The notes under the pieces were generated by a model. That model did no database searches. It saw only the letters and a program-made list of their open reading frames with translations, and was not told the origin of the DNA. A stretch of DNA of 35,967 nucleotides from Flavobacteriales bacterium (GTDB lineage: Bacteria; Bacteroidota; Bacteroidia; Flavobacteriales_D; Parvicellaceae), in NCBI GenBank assembly GCA_016780365.1, contig JADHMB010000013.1, positions 1-35,967 on the forward strand, given 5' to 3'. The translations under genes were made by a program, and so were the position numbers. Of the stretch, positions 31,363-34,454 are shown piece by piece (the first letter of the stretch is position 1; each line of letters opens with the position of its first letter).

Positions 31363-32226
31363 TTAAATTTTGAGTTTTTCTAGTTCTTTCAAGCTCGATA
31401 AGTAAAAGCTTTCCGATTCTCGTGCAAACTTACTGCTTTTATAAGAATCCACAAAAGTATAATAAGATTTAATAGTTTCTTCAAATCTTTCTATTTTTTT
31501 TGAGTCGATACTATTTGAAGCATACAAATAGTTAGATTTTAATATCAGAAAGAGTATTTCTTCCTTAAAATTGGTGTTTGGAAATTCAGAAATTGTAGTA
31601 TTTAAAGCAATGGTAGCAGACCTGTATTTTTCCATTTTATAATAAAGTTTTCCCTTTTCAAAACTTTTTAATTCTAGTCTGTTTCTTAAATCACTAACCA
31701 TTTTATTACAACTATCTAATAGATAGCTATTGGGGTATTTGCTCATAAATAGTTGAAATTCATCGATTGCTTTATAACTTTCTGATTGGTCTAAATAATA
31801 ATCTGGAGAGTTCTTCATAAGACAAATAGCAGAATTAAAAGCACATTCTTCCACTCTTGAACTTTGAGGAAAGTTTTTTACAAATCTTTTAAAATAATAC
31901 CCAGCAAGATAGTAATCCCCCATGCAATATTGATTTTTTGCATAGTAATAATATACATCTTCCCCTTTACTAGTCATTCTAAAATAAGACATTAATTCTT
32001 CTAGAAGTGGCAAGGATTTGTAACACTGGTTATTTTCATAGTACTCCAGAGCTTTTTCATACTTTAAATTATAGTCTGTTCCTTTCAAAATTTTGTTGTA
32101 ATCAGAACAAGACAACATTGTTAAAAAAACAAAGGTTGTAATAAAAGCAAGTAGAGGAATACCATTATTTAACTTGGATAAAAGCTTAAGTGAACGTTCA
32201 AAATATTTTTCTCTTTGGTGACTCAA
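31363..32226 (-). CDS. bamD: Outer-membrane assembly lipoprotein BamD
   Basis: 287 residues, TPR lipoprotein of the BAM complex, which folds beta barrels into the outer membrane. The lipobox is LTMLSC with Cys40 the lipidation site, followed by SDYNKILKGTDYNLKYEKA. About five TPR units follow (YYENNQCYKSLPLLEELMSY; YYLAGYYFKRFVKNFPQSSR; AIDEFQLFMSKYPNSYLLD; KYRSATIALNTTISEFPNTN), typical of BamD. The start is TTG: no ATG lies between it and the lipobox, except one too close to the Cys, so the leader is unusually long (39 residues). A -7 box ends 13 bases upstream of the TTG, in agreement with this start. It is the first gene of the bamD-rpoZ-coaBC-DUF4835-dapA run. Confidence 0.9.
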   Translation of the reverse strand: MSHQREKYFERSLKLLSKLNNGIPLLAFITTFVFLTMLSCSDYNKILKGTDYNLKYEKALEYYENNQCYKSLPLLEELMSYFRMTSKGEDVYYYYAKNQYCMGDYYLAGYYFKRFVKNFPQSSRVEECAFNSAICLMKNSPDYYLDQSESYKAIDEFQLFMSKYPNSYLLDSCNKMVSDLRNRLELKSFEKGKLYYKMEKYRSATIALNTTISEFPNTNFKEEILFLILKSNYLYASNSIDSKKIERFEETIKSYYTFVDSYKSSKFARESESFYLSSLKELEKLKI

Positions 32227-32239
32227 ATTAAATTTTTTT

Positions 32240-32247
32240 CAAATATA
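32240..32247 (-). promoter_or_regulatory. -7 box upstream of bamD
   Basis: TATATTTG on the minus strand (32247-32240) matches TAnnTTTG exactly; no TTG is seen at the -33 distance. It would serve the whole bamD-to-dapA run. Confidence 0.4.
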
Positions 32248-32288
32248 GGTTTCTTTGTTATAATTGGAAGGAAATAATTGTTGGAATA

Positions 32289-33524
32289 CTAAGTATAAAA
32301 TATATAAGCTAAGAAAATGGAGGAAACAATCCCCACAAAATCAGCAATTAACCCTACGGAAGCAGCGTAGCGAATTTTTTTAATTTTTACAGAACCAAAA
32401 TAAACTGCTAAAATATAAAAGGTTGTATCAGAGCAACCTTGAAAAGTTGAAGCAAGTCTTCCAACAAAAGACTCTACACCATTGGTTTGGAAAATTTCTA
32501 GCATCAGTGCTCTTGCTGCAGGTCCGCTAAAAGGTTTCATAAAAGCAACAGGGAGAGAATCTATAAACTCTAAAGAATTTACTCCAACAAATACCAGAAC
32601 ATACTCAATTCCACTAAATAGAGATTGCATTGCACCTGAAGTTCTAAAAAGAGAAACAGCCGCAAGAATAGCAATAACATAAGGCAGAATACTAAGTGCA
32701 ATATCAAATCCACTTTTTGCCCCTTCTACAAAGCTTTCATAAACATTGATTTTTTTCACAAAACCATAAATCACAAAACCAGTAATGGTGATAAGTAATA
32801 TAAAATTTCCCACAAATGAGGATATGAAATTAACAGAATCTGGAGAGTAGATACACCAAGCAAGTAAGCCAAAAATAAGAAAACTTAATCCTCCGATGTA
32901 GGCGAAAATAACTCTATCAAAAAGATTTATTTTTTGTTTGATTGCAACAAGAATCAAGCCTGTTAAAGTAGCAAAAAAAGTAGCAAATAAAATTGGTAAA
33001 AAAACTATAGTTGGGTCAGTTGCTCCGTCTGCCATTGCTCGATAGCCAATAATACTTACAGGAATTATGGTTAAACCAGATGTATTTAAAACTAAAAACA
33101 TAATTTGAGCATTGCTAGCGGTATCTTTAGATGGGTTTAAATCTTGTAAAAGTTTTATAGCTTTTAGACCTATGGGAGTTGCAGCATTGTCTAAACCTAA
33201 CATATTGGCACTATAATTCAGCATTATAGCACCTGAAGCTGGATGTCCCTTTGGAATTTCAGGAAATAATCTAGAAAAAAGAGGAGAAACAAACCAAGAT
33301 AGAGAAGAAACAATTCCTGCTTGTTCTCCGATGTTCATCACCCCCATCCAAAGGCAAAGAGCACCAGTGAGGTAAATAACCATTTCAAAACCATTTTTTA
33401 CACTTTCAAAAAGATTTTCCACCAAGAGTTTAAAAATGTCAAAATCATGAAAAATAAATGCTTTTCCACAGGCCATAATCATAGCTATGGCAATTAAAGC
33501 CACCCAAATTCTATTCAGTAACAT
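32289..33524 (-). CDS. SpmA-SpmB fusion, nucleoside-recognition (Gate) membrane protein
   Basis: 411-residue polytopic membrane protein in which spore-maturation-type SpmA and SpmB halves are fused. The SpmA half carries NYSANMLGLDNAATPIGLKA (near 102-121) preceded by FPEIPKGHPASGAI; the SpmB half (from about residue 215) carries LPVAFMKPFSGPAARALMLE and the closing TFQGCSDTTFYILAVYFG. About ten hydrophobic helices are visible. In Bacillus, SpmA and SpmB act with a D,D-carboxypeptidase in spore core dehydration; in non-sporulating Bacteroidota the role is unknown. The start overlaps by 14 bases the end of the M15 carboxypeptidase gene, so the two are translationally coupled. The alternative name, nucleoside recognition domain protein, describes the same fold. 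Confidence 0.9.
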   Translation of the reverse strand: MLLNRIWVALIAIAMIMACGKAFIFHDFDIFKLLVENLFESVKNGFEMVIYLTGALCLWMGVMNIGEQAGIVSSLSWFVSPLFSRLFPEIPKGHPASGAIMLNYSANMLGLDNAATPIGLKAIKLLQDLNPSKDTASNAQIMFLVLNTSGLTIIPVSIIGYRAMADGATDPTIVFLPILFATFFATLTGLILVAIKQKINLFDRVIFAYIGGLSFLIFGLLAWCIYSPDSVNFISSFVGNFILLITITGFVIYGFVKKINVYESFVEGAKSGFDIALSILPYVIAILAAVSLFRTSGAMQSLFSGIEYVLVFVGVNSLEFIDSLPVAFMKPFSGPAARALMLEIFQTNGVESFVGRLASTFQGCSDTTFYILAVYFGSVKIKKIRYAASVGLIADFVGIVSSIFLAYIFYT

Positions 33525-34365
33525 TTATTATTTTTTTAAAATCAGTATTTATTCCGTTAACAAAGTTTTTAATTACATCTACCTTTGGATGACAAGCAAA
33601 CTTAGATCCTTTGAAAGAGGAAATATTCTCACAATTAATATATTCATTGAATTGAATTAAAAATTGCTCGGATATTGGCATATAAGACCAATGCCATTTT
33701 TCCATTTTATATCCAGTTCTTTTGGTCTCTTCTTGGTTATCGTAAGTCATGTGAAAACCATATTTAGAAGCATTTTCAACCAACCAATCGAATATTTTTT
33801 TACCCTCACCTATTTCGAAATAACTGTTTTCTAAATTGTTTAAATCTATATCCGTTCCCCAGTGGTGTCTAGAGGTTGAAGGCATGGAGCTGTATTTCAT
33901 AATCTCTTTTACTGCGGAAATACTATCCATTTTTAGGATGTTTTTAGCCCATTTTCTATCCCAAATATATTTTTGATGGTTGAAACTTCTTGTTCCGGAA
34001 ATTATTACAAGTTTTATACCATCTTTAAGGGCAGCATTGTACATTTGATCAAACTTTAGCAATACTTCATTTCTAAGGTAAATTGTTTTTGAAGAGTATT
34101 TAGAACTTACAATACTAAAATTACTGTCTTTTTTATAATCGAATTTTCCAAGTAAAATATTTTTTTCAATTTTTTCAAAATTTTTCGGTTTTACAGTTTT
34201 TTTGGTACTAGAATTCCCAAATGATGCGGTTTGTAGTAAAATATCTTTGTTTTCAAGAGTTTTTAATTCTGAACTTTGAACGACTTTTGCTAAACTTTTA
34301 GACTCGTTTTCGTTGTTGCAGGACAACAAAAAAACAGAAAGAAAACAGGCAATTAATTTACTCAT
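33511..34365 (-). CDS. Lipoprotein M15-family D,D-carboxypeptidase (VanY type)
   Basis: 284 residues. A lipoprotein signal (KLIACFLSVFLLSC, Cys16) anchors it in the envelope. The peptidase domain (from about residue 70) has the M15 signature SxHxxGxxxD as Ser165-Arg-His167-His-Trp-Gly170-x3-Asp174, and the closing E-x-W-H as Glu222-Lys-Trp-His225. His167, Asp174 and His225 should bind zinc, and Glu222 act in catalysis. SGTRSFNHQ near 123-131 is the usual substrate-site block. The enzyme should trim terminal D-alanine from peptidoglycan stems. A long disordered linker (residues 17-70, Ser/Lys/Glu) joins anchor and domain. The 14-base overlap with the SpmAB fusion ties the two. D,L- versus D,D-specificity is not readable from sequence. 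Confidence 0.92.
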   Translation of the reverse strand: MSKLIACFLSVFLLSCNNENESKSLAKVVQSSELKTLENKDILLQTASFGNSSTKKTVKPKNFEKIEKNILLGKFDYKKDSNFSIVSSKYSSKTIYLRNEVLLKFDQMYNAALKDGIKLVIISGTRSFNHQKYIWDRKWAKNILKMDSISAVKEIMKYSSMPSTSRHHWGTDIDLNNLENSYFEIGEGKKIFDWLVENASKYGFHMTYDNQEETKRTGYKMEKWHWSYMPISEQFLIQFNEYINCENISSFKGSKFACHPKVDVIKNFVNGINTDFKKIINVTE

Positions 34366-34439
34366 TTAACAAGTTATTGTTTTAAGATAAGTACAAGATA
34401 TTTTAATTCTGTAAAAGATTTATACAATTTGAAAAGTCA

Positions 34440-34454
34440 ATTCTAATATAGAAT
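34440..34454. promoter_or_regulatory. Palindrome 1 upstream of the alpha-oxoamine synthase gene
   Basis: ATTCTA (34440-34445), spacer ATA, TAGAAT (34449-34454): perfect six-base arms. The same arms recur at 34563-34575, so it may be half of an operator pair. Confidence 0.35.

Follow-up and report, generated by a model that had tools for sequence, protein, structure and literature searches.

Why a bacterium with no sign of sporulation should carry spore maturation proteins next to a cell wall carboxypeptidase is the question raised by this locus. SpmA and SpmB are required for dehydration of the spore core and are present in nearly all spore formers, with no biochemical activity assigned (PMC3533761). 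In Bacillus and in some Clostridia-type Bacillota their genes follow directly a carboxypeptidase gene in a single operon, dacB-spmA-spmB. The window (the whole stretch of DNA that was analysed, 35,967 nucleotides of a Flavobacteriales contig) holds a comparable arrangement, in which a fused SpmA-SpmB protein (SpmAB) follows a carboxypeptidase of family M15. The first-pass annotation took this likeness as a hint of a general link between SpmAB and the trimming of peptidoglycan stem peptides. A literature search on SpmAB in Bacteroidota found no report.

The two genes and their predicted products

The features on which the analysis rests are the following.

33511..34365, minus strand: zinc carboxypeptidase of family M15 (VanY/LdcB-type), predicted lipoprotein of 284 aa (Pfam VanY, solved relatives)
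34318..34365, minus strand: lipoprotein signal peptide with lipobox-like VFLLSC and predicted lipidated Cys16 (translation read directly)
33676..34083, minus strand: catalytic domain of the M15 enzyme, holding S123/R126, catalytic E222 and the zinc ligands H167, D174 and H225 (VanY match position, alignment)
33511..33524, minus strand: 14 bp shared by the end of the M15 gene and the beginning of the SpmAB gene (ORF coordinates)
32289..33524, minus strand: SpmA-SpmB fusion of 411 aa, predicted inner-membrane elevator-type transporter (Gate domains, homology, AF2 model)
33045..33371, minus strand: SpmA half, Gate domain (Pfam residues 52-160) with the SANMLGLDNAATPIG motif (Pfam)
32382..32696, minus strand: second Gate-like domain, in the SpmB half, bearing the motifs KPFSG and QGCSDTTFYILAVYFG (Gate score below cut-off)
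32227..34450, no strand assigned: accessory segment between a serine-palmitoyltransferase-like gene and bamD (congener comparison; boundaries approximate)

Both genes lie on the minus strand with M15 upstream, and the overlap of 14 bases described by the first-pass annotation was confirmed on the two open reading frames. The same 14-bp overlap is found in L086 and L087, while a 4-bp gap separates the genes in L085. Translation of the two genes may be coupled across the overlap.

The M15 product matches Pfam VanY (PF02557) with an E-value of 1.7e-33 and 115.6 bits against a cut-off of 25, and combines this domain with the H-x(6)-D ... E-x-x-H residues of the VanY/LdcB family. Residue roles were assigned through alignment to YodJ/LdcB: S123, R126, H167, D174, E222 and H225 match the catalytic and zinc-binding residues of LdcB (PMC4087270), and all six are invariant in an alignment of 11 relatives, so that the full set of zinc and catalytic residues claimed earlier is indeed in place. 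With LdcB/YodJ and VanY-type enzymes the protein also shares a Gln and a Ser implicated in recognition of the terminal D-Ala; it differs from them in being a Bacteroidota lipoprotein, in having its own C-terminal extension and in standing in an operon with SpmAB. A lipoprotein signal can be read from the translated N-terminus, MSKLIACFLSVFLLSC, and a Cys similarly follows an N-terminal hydrophobic stretch in the M15 proteins of L086, L087 and one L085 copy. The closest solved structures are B. subtilis YodJ (4ox3), an L,D-carboxypeptidase (PMC4087270), and VanY-type D,D enzymes, at similar E-values; the protein would remove a terminal D-Ala, acting as either a D,D or an L,D enzyme. The nearest named NCBIfam families are those of VanY and VanXY, with scores (56.4 bits against 400 for vanY_BG, 52 against 250 for vanXY) that do not make it a named VanY determinant. 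Its AF2 model, built from only 7 sequences, has a pLDDT of 59.

The two halves of the downstream protein match Bacillota SpmA and SpmB with E-values of about 1e-26 to 1e-31. The Gate domain (PF07670) scores 46.5 bits in the SpmA half, above the cut-off of 29.6, and 22.9 bits in the SpmB half, which despite this low score matches Bacillota SpmB at about 1e-29. By homology, the 411-aa protein is a true SpmA-SpmB fusion. Across 38 homologues N107, L109, L111-N113, A115-P117 and G119 are invariant in the SpmA half, as are S333, G334, A337, R338, Q362, G363, T367 and T368 in the SpmB half. It shares both halves and the Gate domains with the SpmA and SpmB of spore formers, from which it differs in being a single fused chain in a non-spore-former, a fusion that is usual in this order. 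Longer fusions occur at L067:5185-6810, L047:5000-6613 and L029:5684-7102, where an additional segment of about 55 to 120 residues, probably periplasmic, separates the first helix from the first Gate domain.

No solved homologue of SpmAB was detected by sequence search at E up to 1. The AF2 model, based on 38 sequences (pLDDT 83.8, pTM 0.81), matches almost exclusively transporters of the CNT, DASS, NaS1, ArsB and TRAP-M types. Nearly all of the 50 VIA-align matches listed are CNT/DASS/TRAP-like, with Z of 7.6-12.8, a range to be read knowing that helical proteins give middling Z; the best among them is 12.8 to CNT over 262 residues. Foldseek matches to elevator-type folds are modest (E about 2e-3 at best). 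The apparent likeness to CNT, DASS and TRAP-M lies in the overall predicted fold, with up to 340 residues aligned to DASS at an identity of about 12%, and such a likeness does not give the cargo. A sequence-level repeat search between the SpmA and SpmB halves returned only a 23-column match. From the model, it is likely that SpmAB is a secondary transporter of which SpmA and SpmB form the two halves. Of the two roles suggested earlier, transport of a released product fits this fold better than a direct role in turgor.

Genomic setting, origin and selection

The host genome, a MAG from the Flavobacteriales, spans 1.97 Mb at 86% completeness; its close relatives bear the labels Crocinitomicaceae SP19, Bacteroidetes bacterium MED-G20 and uncultured Flavobacteriales bacterium. 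Spo0A_C, the single sporulation marker searched, was not found in this 86% complete genome or in its relatives and was detected in a clostridial control genome, in agreement with the earlier remark that the organism gives no sign of sporulation. The window's M15 is the only VanY-family gene in the genome, which also has one S13 (PBP4-like) carboxypeptidase gene and no S11 gene over the cut-off (again in a MAG 86% complete). A second SpmAB fusion, 50% identical to the window's, is encoded at G000:C49:23507-24748 (L005), and it is the copy common to nearly all members of the genus. Since a resident SpmAB and an S13 enzyme are already there, the pair would supplement wall trimming and not create it.

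The pair occupies an accessory segment. In 7 congeners the serine-palmitoyltransferase-like gene and bamD are directly adjacent, and the intergenic alignment with these empty sites ends near 34450 and then diverges. Judged by resident SpmAB, two of the empty-site genomes (G401 and G362) belong to the nearest relatives, so presence of the pair varies even at short distance. The listed bamD ORF opens with TTG; its initial 14 to 30 residues (positions 32150-32226) do not align with insert-free congeners, and the true bamD start may lie downstream of the listed TTG.

Regarding its origin, all six SpmAB proteins linked to M15 make up a single clade (100/100 support). In the tree this clade sits inside the Crocinitomicaceae proteins, a long way from the SpmAB that is resident in the window's family. 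This placement indicates that the family gained the pair horizontally. The pair is intact in three genomic settings: the site in the window's genus, G343, and Lishizhenia-labelled MAGs, where SpmAB comes after a gene for an SH3-domain protein and two M15 genes in tandem. In L085 an SH3_3-domain protein (L085:8879-9487) lies directly 5' of the two tandem M15 genes, with SpmAB next; in L089 an SH3_3-domain protein (L089:4990-5616) likewise precedes two tandem M15 genes, with no SpmAB after them. G348 has SH3-M15-M15 genes with SpmAB not adjoining.

From the window to L088, L087 and L086, dN/dS values are 0.004/0.263, 0.014/0.556 and 0.026/1.173 for SpmAB, and 0.035/0.266, 0.101/0.481 and 0.191/1.397 for M15. 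The ratio is therefore about 0.02 for SpmAB up to dS 1.2 and about 0.13-0.21 for M15; judged by these substitutions purifying selection acts on both genes, with particular strength on SpmAB, and their shared dS scale is as expected for co-inheritance. A SpmAB identity of 95-99% had hinted that the cassette moved between members of the window's family very recently; this was rejected, as dS reaches 1.2 and falls just somewhat short of the values for flanking or resident genes. In the family sample of 39 genomes, counted by hand, the same 4 have both the M15 gene and a second SpmAB, and the other 35 have neither. The pairing kept in three settings, together with purifying selection, makes a functional coupling of M15 and SpmAB likely. 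A few marine Flavobacteriales carry M15-SpmAB as an extra, accessory two-gene operon.

Neighbours of SpmAB in Bacteroidota and in spore formers

SpmAB was present in 131 of 296 genomes sampled from the phylum and in 85 of 150 from the order, and the neighbours of 147 Bacteroidota loci were surveyed. Five of them, namely L085, L086, L087, L088 and the window, have M15 as a neighbour of SpmAB and all belong to one clade, and 142 have no M15 neighbour; a GTDB scan added one further genome with the pair, L168. Confinement of the adjacency to one clade points to a single evolutionary event. No surveyed locus has an S11 or S13 gene sharing an operon with SpmAB, and one S13 gene, in L061, is convergent to spmB. 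The expectation that carboxypeptidases would accompany SpmAB across the phylum was not borne out, and a general Bacteroidota link between SpmAB and M15 is rejected. Most M15 homologues in the order stand apart from SpmAB, and an entire family within it carries M15 but lacks SpmAB.

The commonest genes upstream of SpmAB in Bacteroidota encode a class-I glutamine amidotransferase and a Sua5/YrdC-like protein (28 and 9 of 82 operon-like upstream neighbours, respectively), the same 82 including five VanY, three Amidase_3 and one AmiA-like gene. The order's resident SpmAB often lies 3' of an amidotransferase gene of this class (~190 aa; for instance L109:6773-7345) and a Sua5/YrdC-like gene; the nearest models to this amidotransferase are GMP-synthase amidotransferases, below cut-off. 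Amidase_3 genes directly precede SpmAB at L046:4230-5336, L047:3918-5000 (overlapping by one base) and L050:4123-5193, the closest named family being CwlD, below cut-off. An AmiA-like amidase gene stands immediately 5' at L057:7016-7891, in a further lineage. In every surveyed locus that has an Amidase_3 or AmiA-like gene, this gene is immediately upstream of SpmAB. Downstream, about nine genomes (L045, L049, L051, L052, L054-L056, L058, L067) keep a run of SpmAB, a 2-hydroxyacid dehydrogenase, an alanine-dehydrogenase-like protein (382.7 bits against a cut-off of 391.85) and a CoA-transferase-like protein. The alanine-dehydrogenase-like gene, two or three genes 3' of SpmAB in these Bacteroidota loci, is a weak independent pointer to alanine.

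Among spore formers, we sampled 37 genomes of Clostridia-type Bacillota, 30 of them with SpmB. In 12 of these 30, an S11 carboxypeptidase gene lies within 4 kb upstream of spmAB on the same strand, where chance would give about 0.1 (some three S11 genes per 2.5 Mb). Most of the 43 loci from Oscillospirales-type spore formers lack a neighbouring S11 gene, and immediate adjacency was seen in 0 of 43. Furthermore, dacB is in the spmAB operon in B. subtilis and monocistronic in C. perfringens (PMC8745062), and clostridial spmAB is often unlinked to dacB. The dacB-spmA-spmB model invoked by the first-pass annotation therefore stands for part of the Bacillota and is not universal even among spore formers. 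As in that operon, the window has a wall carboxypeptidase, by family, immediately upstream and co-directional; the enzyme is M15 and not S11 DacB. The window's operon further departs from it in having a zinc lipoprotein without homology to DacB and a single chain for SpmA and SpmB, and in that the pair is an accessory second copy, horizontally acquired, in a genome without detected Spo0A. With S11, M15 and CwlD-like or AmiA-like amidases all beside SpmAB, a link to wall hydrolases recurs with unrelated enzymes, in a patchy manner. In this sense the general link to stem trimming survives in part, with unrelated trimming enzymes in separate lineages, and does not hold as a rule in Bacteroidota.

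A possible trim-and-retrieve role

We tentatively propose, at somewhat less than even confidence, that this horizontally acquired accessory operon is a trim-and-retrieve module. The lipid-anchored M15 enzyme would remove the terminal D-alanine from stem peptides in the periplasm, as its family suggests, and the SpmA-SpmB fusion would act in the inner membrane as an elevator-type secondary transporter, as its predicted fold suggests; their conserved pairing suggests that the two would be made together and serve the same pathway. In its simplest form, SpmAB would take up the released amino acid, with D-Ala as first candidate. In B. subtilis, D-Ala set free by LdcB-type M15 enzymes is put to use again when D-Ala runs short (PMC4087270). 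That the cargo is D-Ala or another trimming product is possible, with no great confidence. Against the module stand the restriction of M15 adjacency to one clade, the M15 homologues that occur without SpmAB, the modest fold scores, and the spm mutants of spore formers, which lose core dehydration (PMC8745062), a phenotype for which D-Ala uptake offers no obvious explanation. Extended to SpmAB in general, uptake of a stem-peptide trimming product such as D-Ala seems doubtful.

A coupled pair with another cargo is a rather less probable alternative. SpmAB would then move an ion, an organic anion or some other solute and M15 would adjust the wall accordingly, by analogy with cortex formation and an effect of SpmAB on core hydration. 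This would suit the anion and nucleoside transporters among the fold matches (DASS, NaS1, CNT, ArsB), the wetter cores of spmA and spmB mutants (PMC8745062, PMC13188902) and the frequent separation of clostridial spmAB from dacB. Against it, the recurrence beside SpmAB of several unrelated wall hydrolases and, in one lineage, of an alanine-dehydrogenase-like gene favours a wall-derived or alanine-related cargo.

It is unlikely that M15 and SpmAB are independent genes that came together by chance and were transferred and inherited en bloc. The single clade (100/100) that holds every M15-SpmAB locus, the SH3-M15-M15 genes of G348 and the many M15 homologues without SpmAB would agree with this; it accounts poorly for an overlap or near-overlap kept at saturated synonymous divergence at three genomic sites, and for a sampled family in which neither M15 nor the second SpmAB occurs alone. 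A VanY-like defence against wall-targeting antimicrobials, with SpmAB exporting or importing the agent, is very improbable, since the kinship to VanY/VanXY and the patchy, transferred distribution are outweighed by an M15 score far under the VanY cut-off (56 against 400 bits), by the lack of vanH, vanA or vanX adjoining M15, and by the Gram-negative outer membrane, which glycopeptides normally fail to cross.

M15-SpmAB is a further form of the carboxypeptidase-spmAB arrangement, echoing dacB-spmA-spmB of spore formers. A non-sporulating lineage in which fused SpmAB stands with a trimming enzyme of a different family provides an independent natural pairing, and with it a transporter hypothesis drawn from the fold and a simple system of two genes for experiments. 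If uptake were general, dacB-spmAB, M15-SpmAB and amidase-SpmAB would be independent assemblies of one principle, spanning spore formers and non-spore-formers. Should a trimming product prove to be the cargo, SpmA and SpmB would gain an explanation after decades without one.
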